From Natrarchaeobius halalkaliphilus (GTDB lineage: Archaea; Halobacteriota; Halobacteria; Halobacteriales; Natrialbaceae), in contig NZ_REFY01000003.1 of NCBI RefSeq assembly GCF_003841485.1, positions 1 to 64,000 of the forward strand: a DNA stretch of 64,000 nt, read 5' to 3'. Position 1 is the first letter of the stretch. Every line of letters starts with the position of its first letter. This document shows positions 25,025 to 54,004 of this stretch, piece by piece. The notes below the pieces were generated by a model. That model had not been told where the DNA came from, made no database searches, and saw nothing but the letters and a program-made list of their open reading frames with translations. Both the position numbers and the translations under genes were made by a program.

Positions 25025-26290
25025 TCAGGTCCGCCGGTTCGTCTCCGGCGAACGGGTGCTCGAGTCAGCGTTCTCGAGCGGTGCGAGCCGCGAATCACGT
25101 AGTAACACCTTTTTGACGATCGAGGGGTTCTCGAGGAGCCGGTGTTTCGCGTGAGCACCGCGACCGCGGCCGCGCCCCTCGCGTTCGGACTGAATAACGT
25201 TGAGGAAGTTTTGCTCCTGGAGAATCTCCTGGACGCGTCGTTCCGAGAGCACGTCAAAATCGAGTCGGCCGGCGATCTCTTTGTACTGGTTGTAGATAAT
25301 CTTCGTCGGGAACTCCTTTTGAGTGCTGTTTTCGGTGAGCAGCGTTAGCGAGTAGAGGATCGCTTTTGCCTGCTGTGGCGATCCCTCGATCAGTTCGTTG
25401 AATCGGTCAGCTTCGGTCTTTTCTTTCGCATCGCGAACGTGTTCGGCGGTCACGCGAGTGTTAGCTTGCTTTTTCGCGATTCTACCGGCGTTGCGAAGGA
25501 TATCGATCGCCTTGCGCGCGTCGCCGTGTTCCTGTGCCGCCAGCGCAGCCGTAAGCGGGATCACGTCGTCGGAAAGGACGCCGTCGTGAAACGCGTCTCG
25601 TCGCTTCTCCAGAATTTCGACGAGCTGGTTGGCGTCGTAGGGCGAAAAGACGAGTTCGTCGCGCGAGAGACTCGATTTAACTCGCTCGGAGAGGTGATCC
25701 GGGAAGTCAATCTTGTTGGAGATACCGATAATGCCGATGCTCGAGTCCGAAATTCGTCGGTTTTCACCCGCTCGCGAGAGCTTCCTGAGAACCTCGTCGT
25801 CCTCGAGCATATCGATCTCGTCGAGGATGACGATCGTGACGTCGGTACAGCGGTCGATAGCCTGCCAGAGGCGTTTGTAGTAGTCACCGGTACCGAGGCC
25901 CCGATCCGGAACTGACACGCCGCTTTCCGTCGAGTCGTTGACGATCTGTGCGATGGTTTTGATGATCGATGCCTCGGTGTTTTGCTCCCCACAGTCGATA
26001 AACGCGTACTTGACCGTCACGTCGTCGCGTTCGGCTTCCGAGATCACTCGCTTGGTGACCGACCGCGAGATGAGCGACTTGCCGGTTCCGGTTTTGCCGA
26101 AGATAAACAGGTGGTTCGGCTCGCTCCCGAAGATGGCCGGATTGAGCGCGTCCGCGACTCGTTGCATTTGTTCGTCGCGTCCGACGATCCGGTCGGGGCC
26201 GGGAAGGTGTGTGATCTCGAGCAATCGCTCGTCGGCAAAGACCGGATCGTCGTACCGAAAGAGTGGATCACGATCGTCGTTGGCGGACAT
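25025..26290 (-). CDS. orc1: Orc1/Cdc6 replication initiator
   Basis: A 421-residue AAA+ initiator that binds origin repeats and loads the MCM helicase. Walker A is GKTGTGKS (residues 65-72), Walker B is VTIVILDEID (about 151-160), and a sensor region with ISNKIDFPDHL follows. The C-terminal winged helix (residues about 320-400) would contact ORB DNA. The gene starts immediately beside a 1-kb region with inverted ORB-like repeats, so it is the cognate initiator of that origin by position. folP follows downstream on the same strand. Confidence 0.95.
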   Translation of the reverse strand: MSANDDRDPLFRYDDPVFADERLLEITHLPGPDRIVGRDEQMQRVADALNPAIFGSEPNHLFIFGKTGTGKSLISRSVTKRVISEAERDDVTVKYAFIDCGEQNTEASIIKTIAQIVNDSTESGVSVPDRGLGTGDYYKRLWQAIDRCTDVTIVILDEIDMLEDDEVLRKLSRAGENRRISDSSIGIIGISNKIDFPDHLSERVKSSLSRDELVFSPYDANQLVEILEKRRDAFHDGVLSDDVIPLTAALAAQEHGDARKAIDILRNAGRIAKKQANTRVTAEHVRDAKEKTEADRFNELIEGSPQQAKAILYSLTLLTENSTQKEFPTKIIYNQYKEIAGRLDFDVLSERRVQEILQEQNFLNVIQSEREGRGRGRGAHAKHRLLENPSIVKKVLLRDSRLAPLENADSSTRSPETNRRT

Positions 26291-26411
26291 TACAGTATCC
26301 AGTGTCTTTCAGCGGGGTTGAAATAAATGTGTGGGGTTCGGTCGCGGGTGTAAATACGGCGGTTCAGGAACCGGCTGCCTACTTCTGACCAAAATTTGAT
26401 CGATCACAGTG

Positions 26412-26434
26412 AATCGCCCGCCTCGCGGGTGTGA
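26412..26434 (-). repeat. ORB-like origin repeat, copy 1 (diverged)
   Basis: Read on the minus strand it begins TCACACCCGCGAGGCGGG. It keeps the CGCGAGG core and the G-run but differs at the second base and in the tail. Confidence 0.55.
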
Positions 26435-26510
26435 GACGGAAACCGAACGTCGAAGCTACGGGAGAACGTGCCGACTGCGTCGATTCATACGGCTACGTTC
26501 GATGGTACCG

Positions 26511-26531
26511 ACACCCCCCTCGCGGATGTAA
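26511..26531 (-). repeat. ORB-like origin repeat, copy 2
   Basis: Read on the minus strand it begins TTACATCCGCGAGGGGGG and ends TGT. It shares both the TTACA-CGCGA part and the G-rich tail with the other copies. Confidence 0.75.
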
Positions 26532-26767
26532 GGGGTAGTTATCCACGTGCTCGAGCGGGTGATGAACCGTTGCATCGACCCGTCAGTTCGGGGAATTCGA
26601 TCCCGAAAGCTGTCAACGCCTTATTCCAGAAAGGAAATCGGAGGCCTGGAACACCAATGTAGGTGGTCGGTAGGATCGGGACAGAAAACGACGAGGAAAG
26701 CGTTGAATCAACATTGCGGCCGGTATCGTTCGATATCGACGACCGATTCCTCACTACCGGACAGGAC

Positions 26768-26791
26768 ACACACCACCGTCGCGTTTGTAAC
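26768..26791 (-). repeat. ORB-like origin repeat, copy 3
   Basis: Read on the minus strand it begins GTTACAAACGCGACGG and ends TGGTGTGT. It is nearly identical to copy 5 over 24 bases but in the opposite orientation. Confidence 0.85.
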
Positions 26792-26861
26792 GACATACTG
26801 ACGGGTGGAGTACGATCGATTACCGAAATTCCGGAAGATAGGATCGATAAATACGTGGATT

Positions 26862-26884
26862 TTACATCCGCGACAGAGGTGTGT
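26862..26884 (+). repeat. ORB-like origin repeat, copy 4
   Basis: On the plus strand it begins TTACATCCGCGACAG and ends AGGTGTGT. It is in the same orientation as copy 5 and 30 bases from it. Confidence 0.75.
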
Positions 26885-26914
26885 TCCACGACAGAACACC
26901 CACACAGACTCACC

Positions 26915-26938
26915 GTTACAAACGCGAGGGGGGTGTGT
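26915..26938 (+). repeat. ORB-like origin repeat, copy 5
   Basis: On the plus strand it begins GTTACAAACGCGAGGGGG and ends GTGTGT. It is followed by CCCCCTC, so GAGGGGG and CCCCCTC form a local inverted repeat at 26927-26946. Confidence 0.85.
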
Positions 26939-27143
26939 CCCCCTCACAGTGTACCCAAAAATCAACCGCGATGACCCCTCTAAAATCGATTCTGGGTAGA
27001 CGATGGCGAGCAGGCAGCCGTTTCGGTACTGAATACGACCGCGTCGAGCCACCAGCCGACAGTCAGAAACCAGGCCTACGTCACGATACGGTTTCTCAGC
27101 TCATTCCCGAATCACGAAAACGATCGTTTGCATATCGGGAACG

Positions 27144-27243
27144 AACTGTTATCCTACTATCCTATCTAGTACTCTCTAGTCTCTAGTACTATCTCTACCT
27201 AGACACTAACCACTCCTATCATATATCATCATTATTATTAATG
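27144..27243. other. AT-rich tract, candidate DNA unwinding element
   Basis: This stretch is strikingly AT-rich against its surroundings and ends in atatatcatcattattattaatgg. It contains two copies of TCTAGTACT (27165-27173 and 27182-27190). It lies on the right side of the ORB repeats, about 200 bases from copy 5. It may also serve as promoter for the methyltransferase gene at 27308. Confidence 0.6.
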
Positions 27244-27307
27244 GTGCATGACTCGCCTCGGGTCTGGACCGAAACTAGTAACCCCCTTCTCGTCGCACTC
27301 GAAACGA

Positions 27308-28075
27308 ATGAGCGACCAGTCGTCCAGATCCGACTCGACTACCCGATCATCGAAGCCAGCCGTCGCCGTCGTGGATGCTCAGTCGCCGGGTAACGTTGGA
27401 ACCATCGCTCGAGCGATGAAGAACTTCGGCTTCGAGGAACTCCTTCTCGTCGATCCTCCCGAACTCGATCCCGACGGCGACGCCTACGGCTTTGCGGGGC
27501 ACGCTCGAGAGGACGTTCTCCCGAACGCGACGGAGGTCACCTTCGACGAGATAGTCGAGAACTACCACACCGTCGGCTGTACGGCAGTCACGAACGAAGA
27601 CGACCGTAGCCACGTTCGGTTTCCGTTCTCGACGCCTGCGGATCTGTCCGATCGGCTCTCGACCGTCGACGGACGGACCGCACTCGTCTTCGGCAGAGAG
27701 CGGGTCGGGTTGACCAACGAAGAACTCGCACGGATCGACGAGATCTGTTCGATTCCGGCGAACGCCGACTATCCCGTGCTCAATCTCGGTCAGGCGGCGA
27801 CGATCGTCCTCTATGAAATCCGTCCACTGACACTCTCCGACGAGGATATCCAGCTCCCTGACGTAGAGCGTGTCCGGGCATCCGAGCCGACGCTGGATCG
27901 ATTGTACGGTCAGTGGGAATCGCTCCTCGCGGAGATCAATCACCCCGAAGAGAAACGCGAGAAAACGATGCGAATGCTCAGACGCGTTCACGGTCGAGCC
28001 GATCTCACCGAACGGGAAGTGAACACCCTTCTCGGACTGGTCCGCCGCGCAACAGAGCGACCTGACCAACAGTGA
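27308..28075 (+). CDS. SPOUT RNA 2'-O-methyltransferase (TrmJ-like)
   Basis: A 255-residue SPOUT-class, SAM-dependent RNA ribose methyltransferase. The knotted cofactor site is built from LVFGRERVGLTNEELA and VLNLGQAATIVLYE, and the N-terminal RNA-contact segment is SPGNVGTIARAMKNFGF. The C-terminal 90 residues form a helical extension as in TrmJ, which modifies position 32 of tRNA. The substrate is inferred from this similarity only. The ATG at 27308 begins MSDQSSRSD; the upstream in-frame start at 27248 would lie inside the AT-rich origin flank. Confidence 0.88.
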   Translation: MSDQSSRSDSTTRSSKPAVAVVDAQSPGNVGTIARAMKNFGFEELLLVDPPELDPDGDAYGFAGHAREDVLPNATEVTFDEIVENYHTVGCTAVTNEDDRSHVRFPFSTPADLSDRLSTVDGRTALVFGRERVGLTNEELARIDEICSIPANADYPVLNLGQAATIVLYEIRPLTLSDEDIQLPDVERVRASEPTLDRLYGQWESLLAEINHPEEKREKTMRMLRRVHGRADLTEREVNTLLGLVRRATERPDQQ

Positions 28076-40126: not shown

Positions 40127-40298
40127 GGTCTCGATGGTGAGCCGCGAGAGTATAAAATCGCGGGCCGTTCCCGACCCGAGTCTCCGAACGACACCTGCTC
40201 CGAGATTGTAACCGTTGAGACGAGTGACGTGCAGTGGCTACTACGGGTGGCGGGTACGGACCGCGATATTTTTGCCTCGGGCGCTCTATCGGTTTCCT

Positions 40299-42886: not shown

Positions 42887-44302
42887 ATGGGAGACGAAGA
42901 CGATTATCGACTCGAGCAGGACAGTCTCGGTGAGATGCGGGTTCCGACGGACGCCTACTGGGGCGCACAGACTCAGCGTGCTATCCAGAACTTTCCGATC
43001 TCCGGTATCTCGTTCGGCCGACGGTTCATTCGAGGACTCGGCGTGGTCAAAAAAGCCGCCGCTCAGGCCAATCGCGACCTCGATCTAGTCGACGACGATG
43101 TCGCGGACGCGATCGTCGAAGCAGCCGACGAGGTCATCGCCGGCGAACACGACGATCAGTTTCCGGTCGACGTCTTCCAGACGGGCTCGGGAACGTCTTC
43201 GAACATGAACGCGAACGAAGTCATCGCGAACCGTGCTGCCGAGAGAATGGGCGCCGATATCGGTGACCGAGTCGTCCACCCGAACGACCACGTCAACTAC
43301 GGCCAATCGAGCAACGACGTGATCCCAACCGCGATGCACGTCGCCTCCCTCGAGGCGATCGAAAAGGACGTCATTCCGGCGCTCGATACGCTTCGAGAGG
43401 CTCTCGAGGAGAAAGAATCCGAGTTCGATGACGTCGTCAAAACCGGTCGCACACACCTTCAGGATGCGACGCCGGTCACCCTGGGACAGGAGTTCGGTGG
43501 CTACCGGACTCAGGTCGAAAAGGGGCTCGCCCGCGTCGACAAGGTCCGTGAACACCTCGCTGAACTCGCACTCGGTGGCACTGCAACGGGAACCGGACTG
43601 AACACGCACCCCGAGTTCCCCGGACGCGCTGCGGAGTACATCACCAAAGAGACCGGTGTCCAGTTCCGCGAGGCGGACAACCACTTCGAGGCTCAGGCCG
43701 CCCACGACGCGATGTCGGAAGCCCACGGTGCGTTGCGTGTCGTCGCCGGCTCACTCAACAAGATCGCAAACGACCTTCGCCTGCTCGCTTCCGGGCCGCG
43801 AAACGGACTCGGTGAGATCGAACAACCACAGAACCAGCCCGGCTCGTCGATCATGCCCGGCAAAATCAATCCGGTCGTCGCTGAAGCCGTCAATCAGGTT
43901 CACAAACAGGTCGTCGGCAACGACGCCGCGGTCACAGCCGGGGCAGCAGAGGGACAGATCGATCTCAACCTCTACAAACCAGTTCTCGCACACAACTTCT
44001 TGCAGTCGGCTGAACTCCTCGCGAACGCGAGTACCGTCTTCGCCGATCGGTTCGTCCGACCGCTCGAGGCGAATAGCGAACACTGTGCTGGGGCGGTTGA
44101 ACAGTCGATGGCGCTTGCGACTCCGCTCAACGTTCACATCGGCTACGATAAGGCGAGCGAGGTCGCAAAGATCGCAACCAACGAAGGAAAGACCATCCGA
44201 GAAGTCGCTCTCGAGAAGGGATATCTCGACGAAGACGAAGCTGATGAGGTTCTCGACCCAGCCAAGATGACCGAACGGGGCATTCTCGGACAGGACGACT
44301 GA
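42887..44302 (+). CDS. fumC: class II fumarate hydratase
   Basis: A 471-residue enzyme of the citric acid cycle that hydrates fumarate to L-malate without iron-sulfur clusters. The superfamily signature GSSIMPGKINPV lies near residue 321 and carries the catalytic loop serines. The N-terminal YWGAQTQRAIQNFPI and the TGSGTSSNMNANEVIANRA segments match FumC. The length is normal. It stands alone, preceded by a promoter-like AT-rich run near 42855. Confidence 0.97.
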   Translation: MGDEDDYRLEQDSLGEMRVPTDAYWGAQTQRAIQNFPISGISFGRRFIRGLGVVKKAAAQANRDLDLVDDDVADAIVEAADEVIAGEHDDQFPVDVFQTGSGTSSNMNANEVIANRAAERMGADIGDRVVHPNDHVNYGQSSNDVIPTAMHVASLEAIEKDVIPALDTLREALEEKESEFDDVVKTGRTHLQDATPVTLGQEFGGYRTQVEKGLARVDKVREHLAELALGGTATGTGLNTHPEFPGRAAEYITKETGVQFREADNHFEAQAAHDAMSEAHGALRVVAGSLNKIANDLRLLASGPRNGLGEIEQPQNQPGSSIMPGKINPVVAEAVNQVHKQVVGNDAAVTAGAAEGQIDLNLYKPVLAHNFLQSAELLANASTVFADRFVRPLEANSEHCAGAVEQSMALATPLNVHIGYDKASEVAKIATNEGKTIREVALEKGYLDEDEADEVLDPAKMTERGILGQDD

Positions 44303-44540
44303 AAGATCGCACCGTCAGCGTACTGATCTCTCGCAGACGGCCTCCGTTCGCGATCTCGACATCCATTATCTCCGATGTGTCGAGAAAGCAGGTACTCGAG
44401 TCCGAATATACGCCCTCACGAACAGCTCTTTTTTGCCTGACCTTGAACGGCAAATCAGCGTAGCGAGTCCGAACCAACCGCGATACGAGCGTAATAAACG
44501 AACCCAAGCAGTTTTGCCCGATGCTCGCGTCTGACGACAC

Positions 44541-44774
44541 ATGCACACCTGTCGCAACTGTAACCAGTCGTTTCAGACCGAACTCGCACTCGAGTTACAC
44601 CGGGATACGTGTCGGAAAGGACAACTGTTCTGCCAGATCTGTGGTGAGCGCTTCCGTGAGGGAGACGCGACGCAGGACGGCTGGCACTACGAATGTCCGA
44701 ACGAGGACTGCGATGGCGACGGCCTCCAGCAGGACTTATATCACGTCGAAGACGTCAGAACTACAACTCACTAG
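44541..44774 (+). CDS. small two-finger zinc protein
   Basis: A 77-residue protein. The first finger is C2HC-like: Cys4, Cys7, His20, Cys24 (CRNCNQSFQTELALELH). The second site is Cys31, Cys34, Cys52 and Cys57 (CQICGERF, CPNEDC). It may bind nucleic acid or a protein partner; small zinc-finger proteins like this are frequent in haloarchaea. The promoter is probably the run gtaataaacgaaccc about 35 bases upstream. Confidence 0.75.
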   Translation: MHTCRNCNQSFQTELALELHRDTCRKGQLFCQICGERFREGDATQDGWHYECPNEDCDGDGLQQDLYHVEDVRTTTH

Positions 44775-46025
44775 TCCGTTCCCGGTTCGCTCCTGCCGCC
44801 GTTTTCGTATGCTCTCTTGAGAGATGCGCTGGATACTCCTCGTTAGCAATCCAGGATAGCGCGTCGCGGGTCACTTCAGTAACCCGTCCCCGGACCATCC
44901 CAGCGTATCAACGAACTCGCAGTCCGCAGTCGCGCACCGATCGCTTCGAACGGTCGCCCCACGAAAGCCATCACTCACCGGTCGGGCGTCCGTCAGCGAC
45001 GACACAAGCTTCGACGTGCTCTCAGCAGACCCATTATGTATAGCGGAATATGATTTAGAATTCTACTGGTCTTCTAAGCGAAGTACAAGATCGGTTGACC
45101 GATCGGTGAACGTGTTTCTCGAGGTGGACTGTGCCGTCGAACTGCTCTCGAGTTGCCGAGATACGTTCTGACTCTCGTTTGCCAGAGTCGAGTAGACGGA
45201 ATACGGGTCAACTGTCTCTCGGTGAACCATTCCGATCTCCTGAAGGAAGGTGTTCCATCGGAAACTCGACAACGGGCTTCGAAAACTCTCGTGCAGCCAC
45301 CGGACTCTGATCGTTCATCGAACGACGACATAGTAGCTTAAAACGTATAGCAATATGAACGACGTGACGCCTCTTTTCTGCAGTTACATTCGGCTTCTCT
45401 CTACTGGCTCGCGCTAGTTGACTAATGTAATCCATTTATTACTATCTTTTTGCCGAAAAACGGACTCGAGGCGATGTCGGTGACGAATTTCGTCGATTCT
45501 CGGATGTAACTCGTCTGTCGAAAGACCAGAAAACCCACTGTTGCTCTGGTGCTTTCCCGTCGAGACGTCCAGGCCCGACGCTGGCCGGTTCGTTGTCCAT
45601 GACCGTCCCGATCATCTGAAGGCGAATCAGTTGGATATCGAACTTCGATCAGTCGAATCTCGTAGCACTCATCAAAACTCCCACCGGAGCGAACCGAGTC
45701 GGGCCCGCGAAATCCGATAGGGCACTCGTACATCGGTGAATCGTTCCTCAGCGAATCGGTATACACACGGTCACATTGGAAGTGCTATACACCGGACATA
45801 TGATCTCATTGTGCCTTTCAGCCGTCCAGTAACCCCACTGGTGCATTATCCTAACTAGTGACACCAATTGACTGACTTTACCTATCTTGTGTTATGGGCC
45901 GTTATTGAACCTTAATCTTATATTATGGGTTCTTAGGACCGATTTTCTATCACCAGAAAATGAGATAAGGTCACTTAGATGCATTCATAGATACATTGAA
46001 GGTCATCCCGTTTGATGAATCGCGT
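44775..46025. other. gene-poor stretch before the DUF5805-integrase pair
   Basis: These 1,251 bases become AT-richer to the right. Two short minus-strand frames lie at 44871-45005 (GTG start, contains RCATADCEFVDTLGW) and 44761-44898 (contains TRDALSWIANEEYPAHL). They overlap in different frames and may be one small gene broken by a frameshift. Another minus-strand frame at 45063-45272 contains NTFLQEIGMVHRETVDPYS without a family match. The part 45780-45990 is strongly AT-rich and looks non-coding. Confidence 0.5.
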
Positions 46026-46418
46026 ATGACCGATCGACCGGACACATCTAGAAAATCAATCAAAACGTACGTTCCGGCCTACCAGAAAGACGAGTGGCGA
46101 TCTCATGCCGACGAACTCGACATGAGCCAGAGCGAGTTCGTTCGAACGATGGTTCAGGCCGGACGAAAGGGGTTTACATCCGGCTCCGAGGAACCCGATT
46201 CTCCGGCCTCTGACCCTGGGGGTAACGTCCTCGAGACCCGGGTCCTCGAGTTACTTTCGACTGACACGTATTCGTGGGACGAGTTGCTGGAGGCGGTCAG
46301 CGACGATATCGAATCCCGCCTCGACGAAACGCTCGAGGATCTTCAGTCTACCAATCGAATTCGATACAGTGGTCGACACGGCGGGTACACGCTCGTGGGG
46401 GACGGCGATGGCGACTGA
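46026..46418 (+). CDS. DUF5805 family protein, probable small DNA-binding partner of the integrase
   Basis: A 130-residue protein. Residues about 8-55 (SIKTYVPAYQKDEWRSHAD, then ELDMSQSEFVRTMVQAGRK) look like a ribbon-helix-helix DNA-binding unit. The C-terminal part (ETRVLELLSTDTYSWDELLE, then TNRIRYSGRHGGYTLV) is a winged-helix-like segment. I recall this as the haloarchaeal DUF5805 family. The gene overlaps the integrase start by 11 bases, so the two are translationally coupled. A role as directionality or accessory factor is inference. The ATG at 46026 was used in place of an upstream TTG. Confidence 0.8.
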   Translation: MTDRPDTSRKSIKTYVPAYQKDEWRSHADELDMSQSEFVRTMVQAGRKGFTSGSEEPDSPASDPGGNVLETRVLELLSTDTYSWDELLEAVSDDIESRLDETLEDLQSTNRIRYSGRHGGYTLVGDGDGD

Positions 46419-47445
46419 GGCGACGACCGAGGACGTCGACGATCCGATCGTCTACTTTCTCGACGACCAGCGCTATCACGGGAAAAGCGATCGAACGATC
46501 GAGGCCTACGAACGTGTTCTCAGGGGGTTCGAGGCCTTCGTTTCCGAAGAATTCTCGGTCGAATCGCTTCCCGATGCGACCAGGCGGGAGTGTATGGCCT
46601 GGGTTCACTCGCTCCGTGGACAGTACGAACCGAGCACGGTCGCGACGTATGCGTCGTATCTCAACCGATTTTACGATTACATGAACCGCATCGGGATGTT
46701 CGAGGCCAACCCCATGGCGCTGGTCATGGAGGAAATGTCGGAATCGATCGATTCGGATCCGACGAGACGGGATATCTCGATCGACGAGATGCGCTCGTTC
46801 GTCGACACGATCACGCACCCGCTCGAGCGAGCGATCGTTCTCACGCTGTTGAAAACCGGAATGCGCGTCGGTGAGCTCTGTAATCTGGATCTTCGCGACC
46901 TGACCGTCGACTGTGACGAACTCGAGCTCCAGTGGGATGCAAGAGTCGAACTCGATCATCGTCCATCCTCCGTGTTCGTTTCATCTGATCCCGCACGCGG
47001 AACGGAAATCAACGGTGACGAACGAACTGCCTCGAACAAGAGAAAGCGTGATACCGTAATTCCCGTCGACGATGAACTCCGAAGCGTACTCGTGGCGTGG
47101 CTCGCGATTCGTCCCGATCCAATTTCACCAGCGAGACCGCTGTTCGTCGACACCCGAAACTCGTGGGGAGAACGAATTACACCGTCGGACGTGCGGTACG
47201 TCGTCGAAAAACACGGCCGAGAGTTCGGTTGGTATCGAACTGGTGGCGGAACGACCGAGAACGTAACACCTCACTATTTCCGTCATTTCTTTACGACGCA
47301 TTTGCGGGATCGAACCGGTGACCGAGGTATCGTCCAGTATCTTCGGGGCGACGTCGCGAGCGAAGTGATCGATACCTACACGCACGACTGGGGTGATCGC
47401 GTCCGAACCACTTACCTCGAGTACATTTATTCGCTGTCCAGATGA
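46408..47445 (+). CDS. tyrosine recombinase/integrase
   Basis: A 345-residue site-specific recombinase. The N-terminal SAM-like core-binding domain covers residues about 10-105. The catalytic domain has Arg153 (TGMRVGEL), the HxxR box His289-Arg292 (HYFRHFF), and the nucleophile Tyr324 (DTYTH). The His or Trp usually found about nine residues before the Tyr is not evident, as this region reads YLRGDVASEV. The protein looks intact. It starts inside DUF5805. No tRNA gene or flanking att repeat is visible, so it may be a chromosomal Xer-like recombinase or a remnant of an integrated element. Confidence 0.92.
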   Translation: MATEATTEDVDDPIVYFLDDQRYHGKSDRTIEAYERVLRGFEAFVSEEFSVESLPDATRRECMAWVHSLRGQYEPSTVATYASYLNRFYDYMNRIGMFEANPMALVMEEMSESIDSDPTRRDISIDEMRSFVDTITHPLERAIVLTLLKTGMRVGELCNLDLRDLTVDCDELELQWDARVELDHRPSSVFVSSDPARGTEINGDERTASNKRKRDTVIPVDDELRSVLVAWLAIRPDPISPARPLFVDTRNSWGERITPSDVRYVVEKHGREFGWYRTGGGTTENVTPHYFRHFFTTHLRDRTGDRGIVQYLRGDVASEVIDTYTHDWGDRVRTTYLEYIYSLSR

Positions 47446-48270
47446 GGGCGGTCACGTCCGATATGGTTTTGAACGTCTTTTTTACTGTGCCTATAGTAAC
47501 ATCTCGTGTTGCGCATGAGCCTCATAAAGTATATACTGATATATCTAATTTCTCGTGTTGTGATGCGAATGCCGGCCAAAACGTTCACGGGAATCGGATA
47601 GTCACCTTCGAAAACGGGTCATGACTGGTCGAAAACAGCGTCGCTAACTACAGACATCTCTCACGAAATGCAAACCAGAACGAGAATTAAATGAGCGTAA
47701 TCAGCTCTTTATTGAGCCAATTGATAAATATGAGAGGGAGTACGGGGTTTCTTTCTCGTTTCGATCACCCAATCCGCTCCTGGGTGAGAAAGTCAACCAG
47801 CAGCCAAAAATTGTAAATGATACAGTCAAATCCAAAATGGAACTATCGGACTTTAAACTCTTTCGGGGTCGTCCAGGCAGCTGCCTCCTTAACCGAAGTG
47901 GACGAGTTCTCAATTGCCCCGCGATCAATATACTCTCATTTTCTGTTTCGCCCAGTGACGGTCTAATGCGAGCTCGTCTCTCACATCAAGGCTCGTGAGA
48001 TGGTTGCGGAGATCTCCTCTCCGTGGACGTTATCTTGAATCGGTTGGAGATACAGACTGAATCATCATTGCCGCCATTCAATGTTAGATCAAAAACCTTG
48101 AGCAACCGAATATCGCGATTCAAGCCTGTGGAAATCTCACACCAGGTATTCAACTATTACTTATTGAAGGTTGAATCACGCCCATACCAATTCAGCGCAC
48201 CTTGAACGGCCGACCAACTCATTCAACTATAATCGCTAAACCTTTAGTGAGATGGAACTGACCGTTGTAT
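47446..48270. other. AT-rich, gene-poor region with decayed sequences
   Basis: These 825 bases lie between the integrase and the Fic gene. They contain the transposase remnant at 47687-47930. A 10-base direct repeat TCTCGTGTTG occurs at 47502-47511 and 47551-47560. A minus-strand frame around 48020-48190 reads RLLKVFDLTLNGGNDDSVCI but has no proper start and no family match. The base composition differs clearly from the chromosome norm. Confidence 0.6.
47687..47930 (-). pseudogene. C-terminal remnant of a haloarchaeal IS transposase
   Basis: Read on the minus strand the sequence gives IDRGAIENSSTSVKEAAAWT, TPKEFKVR, a stop, FHFGFDCIIYNFWLLVDFL, TQERIG, a second stop, then NPVLPLIFINWLNKELITLI and a final stop. 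The RGxIENS, AAWTTPKEF and YNxWLLVDFL landmarks match the C terminus of DDE transposases in haloarchaeal IS elements (IS4-like group, from memory). Two in-frame stops and the missing N-terminal two thirds show it is dead. No terminal inverted repeats were found. Confidence 0.75.
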
Positions 48271-49452
48271 ATGGACCGGAATCGCTTTGCAGAGAGCGCC
48301 CCCGGAGAACTCGTCACAACCACTATCGACGGGTACGAGACCCCCTCGTTTATTCCCGATTCCCTTGACACAATCGAACTCGATCAGGGAGAATTCACTA
48401 AGGAGATCGGGCAGGCAATGCGAATGCTCGGTGCGCTCGAATACATTGGCCCGAAAGCAGGTTCCAGCACGATGCTTATCGAAGCCTTTGCTCGTAAAGA
48501 AGCGGTTCACTCTTCCCGTATCGAAGGTACTCAGGTCACTCTCTCAGATATGTATCGATACGAAGCGCAGCAAGCAGTCGGCGAAACCTCATCTGATCAC
48601 GAGGGGGCACGACAAGCAGAAAACTACCTCGAAGCACTTCAGACTGGACTCAAAGCCATTGAACGGGACGAGAGAATTACTGTAGACACGCTCTGTGAGA
48701 TGCACTCAATCCTCCTTGATGGCGTCCGAAGCGAAGATCCGTCACCCGGAGAGATTCGGGACCAGCAGAATTATCTCGCCCCTTTCGAGGACGCCGACAT
48801 TTCACAAGCGACATTCGTCCCCCCACCACCCACGCAAGCTCACGAAAAACTCGACGCGCTCCTCGAGTATGCGAATGCTCCACAGCCGATTCATTCGCTT
48901 CTCAAACTCGGAGTCATCCACTACCAGTTCGAAACCATCCATCCGTTCCGCGATGGAAACGGACGCCTTGGCCGTCTCTTAGTTAGCCTCGAACTTCAGC
49001 GAGAAGAACTGCTCACGGAACCATATCTGTACCTCAGTGCATATTTCAACGAGTACCGTGGTGACTACACGAACCTCCTCACGCAAGTCCGGACTCGTGG
49101 TTCGTGGGACGACTGGCTTCATTTCTTTCTTCGGGGAATCTGGCAGCAAGCCAAAGAAGGCGTCAAGCGTGGTGAACGGCTGTTGGAACTTCGACGAGAA
49201 TACGTTACTGAATATCAAACTCACCGCTCTGAATATATTCTCCCGGTAACGCAACAACTCTTCAAAAATCCATATATCACCGCGAAACAGGCCGAACAAC
49301 AGTTTAAATTCTCCCACACGACCGCGTACTCGCTGATTGAAACACTCGAAGAAGATGGAGTACTCACCGAGGTTGAGAGCGACGGAAGTAGCCGGCTCTA
49401 CCAAGCAACCGAAATTTACGAACTCATCGATACACCTCTTTCAGAATCGTGA
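48271..49452 (+). CDS. Fic-domain protein with N-terminal inhibitory motif and C-terminal winged helix
   Basis: A 393-residue Fic protein, likely to AMPylate or otherwise nucleotidylate a protein target. The active site is HPFRDGNGRLGR at residues 224-235, with all catalytic residues present. The inhibitory helix motif (S/T)xxxE(G/N) is found at residues 81-86 (SSRIEG), before the Fic core, so it is a class II, self-inhibited form. A C-terminal helix-turn-helix of about 70 residues (ITAKQAEQQFKFSHTTAYSL) may contact DNA. Codon use is less GC-rich than in the chromosome core and it lies in an AT-rich island, so horizontal transfer is likely. The ATG at 48271 was preferred to a TTG six bases upstream. 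Confidence 0.92.
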   Translation: MDRNRFAESAPGELVTTTIDGYETPSFIPDSLDTIELDQGEFTKEIGQAMRMLGALEYIGPKAGSSTMLIEAFARKEAVHSSRIEGTQVTLSDMYRYEAQQAVGETSSDHEGARQAENYLEALQTGLKAIERDERITVDTLCEMHSILLDGVRSEDPSPGEIRDQQNYLAPFEDADISQATFVPPPPTQAHEKLDALLEYANAPQPIHSLLKLGVIHYQFETIHPFRDGNGRLGRLLVSLELQREELLTEPYLYLSAYFNEYRGDYTNLLTQVRTRGSWDDWLHFFLRGIWQQAKEGVKRGERLLELRREYVTEYQTHRSEYILPVTQQLFKNPYITAKQAEQQFKFSHTTAYSLIETLEEDGVLTEVESDGSSRLYQATEIYELIDTPLSES

Positions 49453-50252
49453 TTTATAATCGCGAATGTGTTCCATCAGACATTAAATCACGACCCCGTC
49501 CGCCTCCGTATCCAGCTCTTCCGGAATATCTGTCATCAGTCGAAGTGGAACTGATTCCATTTCAGATAGAATACGATCAGGCATCTTCAAAGTCGCAATC
49601 GAATAGATATCGAACTCAGTACGATCACAAGCTATAGATATACATATACAGTACGGCCTTATATCAGAGGAATCATAACTAAAGTAACATTAAACGGAGT
49701 CGTGCACGTTTTCGTGTCGTTCGCAGCTCAACTCTAGCCTCACTCCCAGAAGTTCGGAAGATAGATTCCCACAAACTACTAAATTACATATTTTTATTCG
49801 AAGGAACAAACCGTCTTATGGGGTTTCGGTAGAGACCTGTCGGTCAAATGTACAATGTGGTGGTCCTCGTTCCAATATCATCCACAATGCATCCTGTGTT
49901 CAGATCGGCATAGGTATCCGTAATTCTGCTATCCTCGATCACATCGATAAACACCGTGTCTTGGCGGTTCTGGATCAATTGATGGTGTACTTGAGAAGGT
50001 TGGTTCTCTCGGAGAAATTTTTTGACGATGCTGGCTGGCTGGTAGCTGATTGTTGGAACCTTGGACTGTCGTTAACAGTAGATAGTACTGAAATTCTATT
50101 TAGAATCCCGTGCAAAAATTACGTGTGGTACAGATGCTTATTGACAGCAGATCCTCATACCGCCCGAAGTAACACTAGGGTAATCACCTGACACCGGTAT
50201 CCGGGAGTGCTTAAGGTATTAATAGCCTCATTCAAGCATACGGATAGCTCAC
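49453..50252. other. AT-rich stretch without a recognisable gene
   Basis: These 800 bases are among the most AT-rich in the window (for example ctatagatatacatatacag near 49635). A plus-strand frame at 49961-50191, open leftward to about 49900, contains LDQLMVYLRRLVLSEKFFDD but has no family match, no good start context, and ordinary random codon use. It may be a decayed gene. The last 40 bases contain ttaaggtattaatagcc, the likely promoter of the LUD-domain gene. Confidence 0.5.
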
Positions 50253-50909
50253 ATGTCACAGCAAAAATCCGATTTTGTAGCCGAGACCGAAATCGACGCG
50301 ACACTCGACGAACTACCGACCGACGAGGCTATCGAGGAGACCGTCAACAACCTCGAGAGTAACGGCTTCGACGTCGTCGTCACGGACTCGGCCGAGGACG
50401 TCCTCGAAGTGCTTCAGGCGCGAATCCCCGCCGACGCGTCGGTGATGAACGGCCACTCCACGACGCTCGAGGAGATCGGCTTCGACGAGCACCTCTCCGA
50501 AGGCGACCACGAGTGGGAGAGTTTGGCGGACGAAGTCTGGAGTATTAACGACGACGCGAAGCGCCAAGCCGCTCGTCGTGAGTCACAGACTGCGGATTAC
50601 TTCCTCGGCGGGATTAACGCGATCTCCCAGACCGGCGAACTCGTCGCGGCCGACCGTTCCGGTAGCCGGATCGGCGCGTACCCCTTCGCCGCGAGCAATG
50701 TCGTCATCGTCAGCGGCGTGAACAAGATCGTTCCGACGCTCGAGGACGCACTCGATCGCCTCGAGTCCGTGGCCTACCCCCTCGAGAACGAACGAGCGAA
50801 AGAGGCCTATGGCGTCGAGTCAGCCATCGCCAAGCAACTCATCTACCGACAAGAACTCGAAGACGGCCGCACGACCGTCGTGCTCGTTCGCGACCAGCTG
50901 GGGTACTAA
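50253..50909 (+). CDS. LUD-domain protein (LutC/YkgG-like)
   Basis: A 218-residue protein of the LUD family, named after lactate utilisation proteins. Landmarks are NGFDVVVTDSAEDVLE, VMNGHSTTLEEIGF and GINAISQTGELVAADRSGSR. LutC works with LutA and LutB in L-lactate oxidation, but neither gene is next to it, so a stand-alone role is likely and unknown. Codon use returns here to high GC, in contrast to the Fic region before it. Confidence 0.88.
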   Translation: MSQQKSDFVAETEIDATLDELPTDEAIEETVNNLESNGFDVVVTDSAEDVLEVLQARIPADASVMNGHSTTLEEIGFDEHLSEGDHEWESLADEVWSINDDAKRQAARRESQTADYFLGGINAISQTGELVAADRSGSRIGAYPFAASNVVIVSGVNKIVPTLEDALDRLESVAYPLENERAKEAYGVESAIAKQLIYRQELEDGRTTVVLVRDQLGY

Positions 50910-50999
50910 CGAGCCAACAAGGCCGGATACAGGTTTCCGTAGTGCAGAGATTGCTGTGGGAAGTTTCTGTCCTTAGTAGGGGAGTGCAGCGTGAATCTC

Positions 51000-52478
51000 T
51001 CACTCAAGCACGAGGTCTGCAGCAATCTTGCTACCCTTTATACATGCGACAGTCCCGAGCCCCGGCCACGTGGTGTCTCCCGCAAGGTAGAAGCCATCTA
51101 CACCGATATCCTGCGGAACAGCATGTTGATTAGAGTTTTGTATCGTTTGTCTGTATCCACCGGTCGCCCCACGTGGCCGATTTGTGAAGGATTCGTAGGT
51201 AACAGGCGTGCCAATATCGTACACGACCGGGTCAGTTGCCAAATCTGGATAGACCGTTCTGGCGTGTGAAATCAGTCGTTGACCTATTGCATCTTTGCGT
51301 CGTGCATACGTCTCATCGTCGAGTTCTTGCCAGAATTCGACATCACAGTGTGTCGATAACATCACCGCACGATACCCTTCAGGGGCACTCACCGTGTCTT
51401 CTGGCGCTGAGACGGTAACGAACATATTGTTTCCGTCGCCGAGCGGTTCATCGTACGCTGTGAGGATCTGATGATGGGTGATATCGTGATCATCGACCTC
51501 TGTCTCTGGGACACCGAGAAACACGACGGCAGCACCGCCTTCGTGAGCTCGAAGCATCTCGATGTGCTCGTCCAATGCATTACCCACGATCGATGATGCG
51601 ATTGATTTAGTGAGATTGATCGGTACCGCACTCACGACTTGTCTGGCAGTGTATTGTTTGTCCTGTGTCGAGACCGTGTATGCACCATCGGTTCCCGTGA
51701 TATCAGTTACTGTCTGCCCGGTTTTGATCGTTCCACCAAGCGTATGATACTGCTCCGTAAACGCGCCCCAGAACCCGTACATTCCGCCAGTGGCACGTCC
51801 GATCCCAGCCCGTCGGATCGTGATACCGAGAATCGAGTTCAACAGTGGCGCGTTGTCGAGCGTCGAATGAACGGTATCCTCAACCAACATGGCGACCGTT
51901 TTACGAAGCGGCGTGTCGTCGTAGACATCATATTGCCGTAGGGCGTCCGCCATAGTCCATTGGAGATACCGAACCAGGGGAATATTCGTCACACCTACCG
52001 CACGTACATTTTGGATGACATCTTGAACGCTCTGTATCGGCATCTTGATGTCCTGTCTCGTCATTTGCCAGAGCGTCTCAGACATCTCATCTAGAAATTT
52101 GTAGAATTCGAGGTGGCGGTCTTCGTTTCCGAGCTTTTCTCGTCGCTCCCGTCGCCATTTCTCTTGATCTCGATACAACGTCACCGTGCGGTCGGGAAGC
52201 CACACGCTGTAGGCATCTTGAATGGTGATATCCGAATATTCGAATCCGATTTCATCCAAGAGTTGTCCACCAACACCATCAAGGTGGAAGTCAACCAGCG
52301 TCGTCGCTCCAACATCGAATGTGAACTCGCCGGATCGGTAATAGCCGGCACAGCCGCCGATATGATCATGCTGCTCCAAGACCAGTGTCGAGCGTCCTTT
52401 CGACTGTAGCCGTGCGGCAGTGCTCATGCCAGCGACACCTCCGCCGACGATAATCACATCAAACCTGTTTCCGGTCAT
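51000..52478 (-). CDS. FAD-dependent phytoene desaturase/retinol reductase-like oxidoreductase
   Basis: A 492-residue flavoprotein of the carotenoid desaturase-isomerase (CrtI/CrtISO/retinol saturase) superfamily. The dinucleotide loop VGGGVAGMSTAARL lies at residues 11-24, and the C-terminal FAD contact is GFYLAGDTTWPGLGTVACIKG. It may desaturate, isomerise or saturate a carotenoid or isoprenoid; the substrate is unknown. Phytoene synthase and other crt genes are not adjacent. It is the last gene of a three-gene, same-strand group with the membrane protein at 52551 and the regulator at 53072. Base composition is lower in GC than the core. Confidence 0.87.
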   Translation of the reverse strand: MTGNRFDVIIVGGGVAGMSTAARLQSKGRSTLVLEQHDHIGGCAGYYRSGEFTFDVGATTLVDFHLDGVGGQLLDEIGFEYSDITIQDAYSVWLPDRTVTLYRDQEKWRRERREKLGNEDRHLEFYKFLDEMSETLWQMTRQDIKMPIQSVQDVIQNVRAVGVTNIPLVRYLQWTMADALRQYDVYDDTPLRKTVAMLVEDTVHSTLDNAPLLNSILGITIRRAGIGRATGGMYGFWGAFTEQYHTLGGTIKTGQTVTDITGTDGAYTVSTQDKQYTARQVVSAVPINLTKSIASSIVGNALDEHIEMLRAHEGGAAVVFLGVPETEVDDHDITHHQILTAYDEPLGDGNNMFVTVSAPEDTVSAPEGYRAVMLSTHCDVEFWQELDDETYARRKDAIGQRLISHARTVYPDLATDPVVYDIGTPVTYESFTNRPRGATGGYRQTIQNSNQHAVPQDIGVDGFYLAGDTTWPGLGTVACIKGSKIAADLVLE

Positions 52479-52550
52479 CTGTCGTTACAAGGACCGCTAC
52501 TGATGCTGTGCCCAGTTCGTCATGGATCGCTTTTAGACACAGTACTGTCA

Positions 52551-52985
52551 TCAAGAGGACCACCATTCACTGACCGTCTGTAAGGCGTTCTTACCGGACA
52601 GTGTGAACAAAGACACAGCAATACCAATGACAGCATACATTACCGTAAGAGAGACAACAAAGAGGCCAGCAGAACCGCTCGGTCCAAGCGCTGATGCAGT
52701 CTGATAGAACGTTTGGTCCATGATCGGATTGAGAACGAGGATTGAAAATATCGATGCCGGAAGGTAGGTAAAAACGAACCAGATGAACTGGACGACCTCG
52801 AAGGCGAGACTATCCTCAACACTGGCTGTTATGAATACGTATCCCAGGCCTATCGCAACGAGCTGGAGTGCCCACAGGCCGAGAATGATTTCGCCAACCA
52901 GTCGGTTGACAGTGATCCGCCGACCAACGTCCAAAACAGCACGTGTTCGGTGTTGGAGGACCGATCCCTGCGTCGTGGGAACCAT
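52551..52985 (-). CDS. four-helix membrane protein of unknown function
   Basis: A 144-residue protein with four predicted helices, about residues 27-48, 62-85, 92-108 and 106-130. The N-terminal 25 residues are cytosolic and contain RTRAVLDVGRRITVNRL. No family was recognised. It lies 72 bases upstream of the FAD oxidoreductase and 86 bases downstream of the regulator, on the same strand, so it probably belongs to their unit. A role in moving or presenting the isoprenoid substrate is speculation. Confidence 0.7.
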   Translation of the reverse strand: MVPTTQGSVLQHRTRAVLDVGRRITVNRLVGEIILGLWALQLVAIGLGYVFITASVEDSLAFEVVQFIWFVFTYLPASIFSILVLNPIMDQTFYQTASALGPSGSAGLFVVSLTVMYAVIGIAVSLFTLSGKNALQTVSEWWSS

Positions 52986-53071
52986 GTCGAATTTCGGAAG
53001 GGCACGAAGTTAATGACATTCCTCGTCGGTTACGGCAAAATGGACACCCCGTGTCGATAATCCATCATTCG

Positions 53072-53833
53072 TCATTCGATGACCGGAGTTGCTGTCCCTC
53101 GGTTTTTCTGATATGTTTCCTTGGCTGCATTGACGACGGCTGGTTCGGCGGTCGAGAACGTTGCCTGAAGGATGCCATCCTCGTACGCCCCGAAAACCAC
53201 CTGTTCGTCGCAGATGATCAACCCGAACCCCACATCATCGTGAACTGCGAGAGAGATATCAGCGAGGGTGGCAGCTAGCCGGATCCCCGCGTGGAGTTTC
53301 CCGCAGAACTCTTCGTAGGCGGTTGCATCGACGACTGCCTCAATATCGGCCCCATCTCGAACGCGTTCAGCGAATGGCCGCACGTATAGCGGTGACGCGA
53401 TCGGAGCTAAGACTCGAATCGACGTTGCATCGGTAAGTGTATCGATGACGTTTGAGACCGGACCGTGTGGTTGAACGGATAAACGGCGAGTCGCAGTTCC
53501 ACTAACCGTTTCAAAGTCAACGTCGACGGCATCTCGGGGAAAAGCATTCAAAAACGCTGCCCGATCGCGGCGTGACTCGATCTGCTCAATTAGCTCAAAC
53601 ACATCGGAGGCGGTGAGTTCGGCGTACGTCGTTGCGGAGTACGTCCGGCTGTTACTCGTCGCCAATCCTTCGTTCTCAAGTACATCTAACGCGCGAGAAA
53701 CAGTTCTTCGTGACGCGTCCACGTGATCAGTGAGTTCGGTTGCGTTTGCCGGTCCGTAGTCGAGAAGGTGGCGGAGCACATCAAGGCGAACAGGAGACCG
53801 TGTCAGTTCCCTGAGTGTCTCAAACCCTTCCAT
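53072..53833 (-). CDS. winged-helix transcriptional regulator with ligand-binding-like domain
   Basis: A 253-residue regulator. Residues about 8-70 are a winged helix (ATELTDHVDASRRTVSRALD). The rest (residues 100-250) is a PLD-like sensor part seen in many haloarchaeal regulators, with SIRVLAPIASPLYVRPFAER and FGLIICDEQVVFGAY. It probably controls the two genes downstream of it. The ATG at 53833 begins MEGFETLRELT, and the AT-rich run upstream (taataaaagc, minus strand) can be its promoter. Confidence 0.85.
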   Translation of the reverse strand: MEGFETLRELTRSPVRLDVLRHLLDYGPANATELTDHVDASRRTVSRALDVLENEGLATSNSRTYSATTYAELTASDVFELIEQIESRRDRAAFLNAFPRDAVDVDFETVSGTATRRLSVQPHGPVSNVIDTLTDATSIRVLAPIASPLYVRPFAERVRDGADIEAVVDATAYEEFCGKLHAGIRLAATLADISLAVHDDVGFGLIICDEQVVFGAYEDGILQATFSTAEPAVVNAAKETYQKNRGTATPVIE

Positions 53834-54004
53834 AGGTAGATATCTTTTCAGGAGGACTAATAAAAGCACTATTGTTACTCATCAAACAGCACCAGTGGAT
53901 ATCAACGAGCCGGCGCAACACAGGTGTTGGTATGGTATCGACAACGATGACCGAGCGATTGAGCATCTAATCGCTTGCTCGAGTAACCCGGAAATCAATC
54001 CGTA

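Follow-up and report, generated by a model that had tools for sequence, protein, structure and literature searches.

A probable second chromosomal replication origin beside an orc1 gene in Natrarchaeobius halalkaliphilus

The spacer next to orc1 at positions 26291-27307 of a 64-kb stretch of Natrarchaeobius halalkaliphilus DNA (the window, 64,000 nucleotides from contig C3) is best explained as a chromosomal replication origin that is additional to oriC1 and is fired by the adjacent Orc1, and we consider this explanation likely to be correct. Very probably the chromosome can start replication at two or more sites, and this locus is one of them, a lineage-specific second origin. A sequence-only reading had described it as a textbook origin. 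The presence of an Orc1-adjacent origin is well supported, because the specificity of the ORB motif, the conserved architecture, the perfect co-distribution of initiator and motif, and synteny all argue for it. The textbook layout, however, did not stand: oriC1 lies elsewhere in the genome, the ORBs are of another class, the DNA separating the inner ORBs does not, as a mean over relatives, exceed its surroundings in AT content, and the AT-rich tract is found outside the array. The best reading is an origin of a separate Orc1/ORB family with a variant layout, departing from the textbook in two ways. For haloarchaeal origins generally, dependence on the adjacent Orc and its linkage to the ORBs are established (PMC3936714, PMC3528665).

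The spacer is the exact gap between the start of orc1 on the minus strand (26290) and the likely start of trmJ, which was picked at ~27308 by conservation among relatives. The orc1/cdc6 gene that directly adjoins the ORBs is full-length. Its product scores 410.6 bits against TIGR02928 (cut-off 181.3), contains the Cdc6_lid and Cdc6_C domains, and is 94-96% identical to most of its Natrialbaceae orthologues. The locus is flanked by housekeeping genes (cetZ, mptE, folP, trmJ and gatE), and the order CetZ-MptE-DHPS-orc1-spacer-trmJ is kept in most of ~45 loci; in relatives with closed genomes, the locus sits on the main chromosome. No Rfam family or tRNA was found within the 64-kb window, and scanning for sigma-70-type promoters and terminators is uninformative for archaea. 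Elsewhere in the window, ~10 kb (44001-54000) have a lower G+C content (0.48-0.55, compared with 0.60 for the window) and may represent an acquired island. A perfect 15-bp inverted repeat, ACGGAAACCGAACGT, occurs both in the origin spacer (26436-26450) and in the trmJ coding region (27612-27626), possibly by chance.

Table 1. Features of the orc1-trmJ region, in window coordinates
Feature	Position	Strand	Remarks
orc1/cdc6 initiator gene	25025-26290	-	421 aa, AAA+ and winged-helix domains; complete
TATA-box-like ATTTATTT of orc1	26321-26328	-	putative role, from conservation
Half-ORB TTACACCCGCGA without G-string	26342-26353	-	13 bp upstream of the orc1 TATA-like box
Variant ORB (copy 1 of the sequence-only reading)	26412-26435	-	degenerate, position conserved
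ORB1	26509-26532	-	32.3 bits; one mismatch to pattern TTACANNCGCGANNNNGGTGTG
ORB2	26768-26791	-	38.8 bits; exact
Spacer between the inner, outward-pointing ORBs	26792-26860		69 bp; rival candidate melting place
ORB3	26861-26884	+	35.9 bits; exact
ORB4	26915-26938	+	38.7 bits; exact
AT-rich tract	27150-27245		least stable DNA of the spacer; putative unwinding element, not within the ORB array
Cluster of four CTAG sites	27166-27202		within 37 bp; overlooked by the sequence-only reading
trmJ-like RNA methyltransferase gene	27308-28075	+	right border of the spacer; TIGR00050 182.4 bits (cut-off 167.15)

Four inverted ORBs with the halophile G-string lie in the spacer, two in each orientation, where an orc1/cdc6-adjacent haloarchaeal origin calls for at least two. 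They are the best four matches to their motif in the 3.5-Mb genome, three of them exact and the other the sole match with one mismatch, so repeats of this kind are not common elsewhere in the genome. When up to three mismatches are allowed, TTACANNCGCGANNNNGGTGTG has five matches in the window where 0.60 are expected, a number that none of the shuffles reached; the fifth is a three-mismatch match at 40190. Five ORB-like repeats had been listed in the sequence-only reading, which foresaw that a motif search would return them above background. The search does so for copies 2-5, whose places and orientations are confirmed, and the close inverted match reported between copies 3 and 5 is borne out (92% complementary over 25 nt). 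Copy 1 (26412-26434) is not a full ORB, because it scores <8 bits with the matrix that gives ORB1-4 32-39 bits. Neither is it random, since in relatives a degenerate ORB with the consensus GTTAGAAGCGCGAGG..GGC occupies the same position relative to orc1.

Across 46 loci, the start-to-start distance from ORB2 to ORB3 is 90-94 bp and that from ORB3 to ORB4 is 54 bp in 38 cases (range 52-56), while the distance from ORB1 to ORB2 is variable (170-602 bp). Both the sequence and the spacing of the ORBs are under strong constraint in these ~46 loci. Halorussus origins of the same Orc1/ORB family (L064-L067 and L073) carry five or six ORBs, which are arranged differently.

Initiator and motif are also distributed together. 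Matches to the window Orc1 at E <=1e-130 occur in 53 of 155 Halobacteria genomes; the identity is >=64% in 48 of these and only ~50% in the other five. The ORB pattern was found without mismatches in 45 of the 150 genomes searched, and these are exactly the 45 searched genomes that encode an Orc1 of >=64% identity. None has one alone, and the motif is absent from those of the 150 that have a ~50% match or no match. With few exceptions (G034:C21, G082:C38), the motif matches lie close to the window-type orc1. Some Natrialbaceae (genera g6 and g13, and one member of g7) lack both the window-type Orc1 and its ORBs, and thus this initiator is not indispensable in the family.

The textbook oriC1 of the genome lies at C1:664.9-665.2 kb. 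The window-type origin and oriC1 are separated by 0.43-0.49 of the circle in five of the seven relatives with chromosome-scale sequences, as computed from locus coordinates in related, and so not independent, genomes. The individual separations are 0.46 in Natrinema gelatinilyticum, 0.43 in N. zhouii and 0.49 in Natronorubrum bangense (oriC1 being placed in the latter two by single classical ORB matches), 0.49 in Natrinema ejinorense (one long contig), 0.45 in Halovivax, 0.29 in Natribaculum breve and 0.30 in Halorussus aquaticus.

These positions bear on the alternative that survives best, which is that the locus is an intact but dormant origin-type locus and that the chromosome normally starts only from oriC1. 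The cumulative G-C skew of the genome has a sharp peak and a clear flip at oriC1, compared with a weak peak at C3:20-26 kb, where only 26 kb of contig lie to the left, and Haloferax mediterranei is known to have an orc-linked origin that is dormant (PMC4595724). Against this, the strong constraint on ORB sequence and spacing in ~46 loci and the near-opposite position to oriC1 in several relatives are hard to explain unless the origin is often used; we regard dormancy as unlikely. GC skew, a test put forward in the sequence-only reading, was rejected as proof of an origin and counts neither for nor against one, as it is weak in this genome and uninformative in two closed relatives, Natronorubrum bangense and Natrinema gelatinilyticum, where no clear extremum appeared at either origin (26% and 22% of the two genomes sampled). 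Weak skew in a haloarchaeon with two origins has been noted earlier (PMC2841640).

The promoter of orc1 contains a further element, overlooked in the sequence-only reading: a perfect left half of an ORB. Counted from the ATG, it occupies -63..-52 in all 46 Natrialbaceae-type loci. In 40 non-redundant loci its mean column identity is 0.95, as against 0.54 over the 260 bp upstream and 0.47 at -110..-70, and the TTTATT columns of the TATA-like box are 0.88-1.00 identical. Farther relatives (Halorussus, Halogranum) have ATACATCCGCGA or ATACATTCGCGA at a similar place. The G-string is essential for origin function at oriC1 of Haloarcula hispanica (PMC3936714). A half-ORB that keeps the recognition half, drops the G-string and sits beside a TATA box resembles an autoregulatory site, and its sequence and placement suggest that orc1 is probably autoregulated through it; we found no published report of such autoregulation for haloarchaea. 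In Escherichia coli, DnaA autoregulates through DnaA boxes in the dnaA promoter. The comparison is one of working principle only, an initiator-type site in the initiator's own promoter: the initiators and the transcription machineries are unrelated, and binding and repression at orc1 are predicted. The half-ORB TTACACCCGCGA has six further exact copies in the genome, and the idea of a half-ORB regulon was dropped, since a non-exhaustive look around these six revealed no second promoter with an orc1-like layout.

The same half-ORB could be taken to mean that the array is mainly a regulatory or titration region, serving orc1 or holding Orc1, and is not an origin. Precedents exist, in that Orc1-2 is a transcription regulator in Sulfolobus (PMC9738581) and Haloarcula has an ORB-rich region that probably serves to titrate Cdc6E (PMC3936714). 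However, the genome has no other full ORB cluster of the window class, so that the window Orc1 would be left with no origin, and the outward-pointing pairs have the geometry of proven origins. This alternative strikes us as very improbable.

Identity with the universal haloarchaeal oriC1 was the first reading after the synteny check, and adjacency to Orc1, inverted ORBs with G-rich tails and synteny conserved within the Natrialbaceae all speak for it. It was rejected, and now seems barely credible short of a misassembly of C1, because the classical ORBs, an Orc1 that passes NF001625 and the PolD small-subunit gene are found together on C1. The classical ORB TCCANNTGAAACNNNGGGG occurs in the genome only at C1:663591, 664913 and 665227 (span C1:663591-665245). 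The C1 Orc1 scores 656 bits against the NF001625 equivalog model (cut-off 501), which the window Orc1 fails with 324; the two proteins are 37% identical when aligned, and the genes that follow the C1 orc1 encode the small subunit of PolD and an archaeal signal peptidase I. The window locus thus has neither the classical ORB nor the universally conserved type of Orc1. The C1 Orc1 (C1:662.5-664.3 kb) owes its length of 591 aa to a long acidic, serine-rich insertion inside the AAA+ domain, and one classical ORB match falls inside its coding region (C1:663591-663609). What the window origin shares with oriC1 (Halobacterium orc7, Haloarcula hispanica cdc6A) is the outward-pointing inverted ORBs, the G-strings and the adjacent Orc1, and with oriC1 of its own genome also a CTAG cluster. 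It differs in the ORB class (TTACANNCGCGA versus TCCANNTGAAAC), in the family of its Orc1, in its neighbours (trmJ instead of the PolD small subunit and signal peptidase) and in having its tract outside the ORBs, whereas that of oriC1 lies between them. Most accessory haloarchaeal orc genes are located on extrachromosomal elements (PMC3528665), but the origin of a plasmid or integrated element would hardly have housekeeping flanks in conserved order or sit on the main chromosome of closed relatives, and this explanation can practically be dismissed.

Different repeats again (TTCACCGGAAANNCGGTGTG, TACAGCGGCANNCCGGGGTGTG and CACTGAAAANGAGGGGTG) occur at the two other orc regions of the genome, of which one is on C7 and one, with a divergent pair of orc genes, on C5. 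The C5 pair (C5:376.5-377.8 kb) has one common spacer with two repeat classes, TACAGCGGCA..CCGGGGTGTG in about nine copies and CACTGAAAA.GAGGGGTG, and possibly represents two back-to-back origins. The orc-adjacent region at C7:179.6-181.0 kb contains at least eight ORB-like repeats of the class TTCACCGGAAA..CGGTGTG. By eye, the ORB classes can be aligned in one register, consisting of the left half, three bases, G..A and the G-string. Because the orc loci on C1, C3, C5 and C7 carry different repeat classes, every initiator seems to be paired with a diverged ORB of its own. A link between ORB class and Orc family is described in general terms in sections of Wu et al. 2012 (PMC3528665), whose origins (oriCa, oriCb and others) resemble the present one in having an initiator gene beside inverted G-string ORBs, an ORB class tied to the Orc family and several such loci per genome. 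Those sections do not describe an invariant promoter half-ORB or an AT/CTAG tract outside the array.

The AT-rich tract that the sequence-only reading counted towards a textbook origin does exist, but instead of lying between ORBs it occupies the interval 212-307 bp rightward of the last of them; the least stable 60 bp are centred at ~27211. Relatives have a similar tract to the right of ORB4, and their least stable DNA is usually on the trmJ side of it. The inner ORB2-ORB3 spacer has an AT content of 0.55 here, against 0.48 for the whole spacer; the corresponding means among relatives are 0.448 and 0.444, and as an AT-rich unwinding element this spacer is therefore unsupported across relatives. 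To judge from the mean composition in relatives and from the position of the least stable DNA, there is no AT-rich unwinding element flanked by ORBs, which is why the claim of a textbook layout is lowered; published criteria for origin prediction consist of ORBs and adjacency. In several relatives, extra DNA makes the orc1-trmJ spacer longer. It separates ORB4 from the CTAG tract in L044 and L053, and the CTAG tract from trmJ in L029 and L074, and these loci are natural tests of whether the tract needs to be close to the ORBs.

The tract includes the cluster of four CTAG sites, for which 0.08 matches are expected in the window. CTAG has a density of 0.36/kb in the 443 kb of the genome sampled, about a tenth of the expectation at 60% G+C, and three sites within 68 bp are found at only five places genome-wide, including oriC1 (C1:665016-665102) and the window locus. 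Among relatives, the spacers contain 5.98 CTAG/kb compared with 0.28 in the flanks, and at least three sites within 80 bp occur in 42 of 45 spacers and in none of the flanks. In this genome and four relatives, the inverted ORBs of oriC1 enclose the cluster, whereas at the window-type origin it falls outside the array. Its centre is 98-371 bp rightward of ORB4 in 41 of 43 such loci; the remaining two have longer spacers and distances of 620 and 881 bp. Each of the orc spacers on C5 and C7 has a single CTAG and no cluster. The five Halorussus window-type origins have no CTAG, and no cluster, in the 500 bp next to their last ORB, and the Halorussus genomes checked do carry the conserved methylase gene. 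This gene (C8:16762-17508) encodes an N4/N6 methylase with an SPPY motif, has orthologues in the relatives checked and probably corresponds to the orphan methylase that is widespread among haloarchaea, with CTAG as its predicted target.

CTAG density at haloarchaeal orc starts, with a possible Dam-like role, was reported by Blow et al. 2016 (PMC4752239), and for this reason the cluster is not presented as a new discovery. Haloferax volcanii has CTAG density at only one of its origins, and the idea has been questioned for this species (Ouellette et al. 2018). As at the loci of Blow et al., the cluster at 27166-27202 is upstream of an orc1/cdc6 gene; the genome has a conserved methylase gene, probably of the orphan type, and methylation is putative. 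The present analysis adds where the cluster stands with respect to the ORBs, and that oriC1 and the window origin have it but the C5 and C7 orc loci do not.

Taken as an origin, the locus would work as follows. Orc1 would bind the four full ORBs as two outward-pointing pairs, ORB1-ORB2 leftward and ORB3-ORB4 rightward, with the inner three near-fixed in spacing, and the bound Orc1 would load the MCM helicase. Melting could take place in the inner spacer, but the AT-rich CTAG tract on the trmJ side is the likelier place, given the base composition and what is seen at oriC1. Orc1 would probably bind the half-ORB next to the TATA box of orc1 and so limit how much Orc1 is made, much as DnaA does at dnaA, and the variant ORB further upstream would perhaps join in limiting orc1. 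At bacterial oriC, Dam/SeqA acts through methylation. By analogy, and much more tentatively, the locus may be a self-limiting unit in which Orc1 fires the full ORBs and the half-ORB shuts off orc1, while the out-of-array CTAG tract, common only with oriC1, would tie both origins to CTAG methylation in a manner resembling Dam/SeqA.

Together with oriC1, the locus is a clean natural example of one archaeal chromosome with two initiator/ORB pairs whose recognition sites have diverged and which often lie close to opposite poles, and its ORB motif is specific enough for testing the specificity of Orc1. Through the invariant promoter half-ORB, it can be asked directly whether the supply of an archaeal initiator is under that initiator's own control. 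Finally, the CTAG tract outside the array would let melting and methylation be studied separately from initiator binding, and so bears on a question that dates from 2016.
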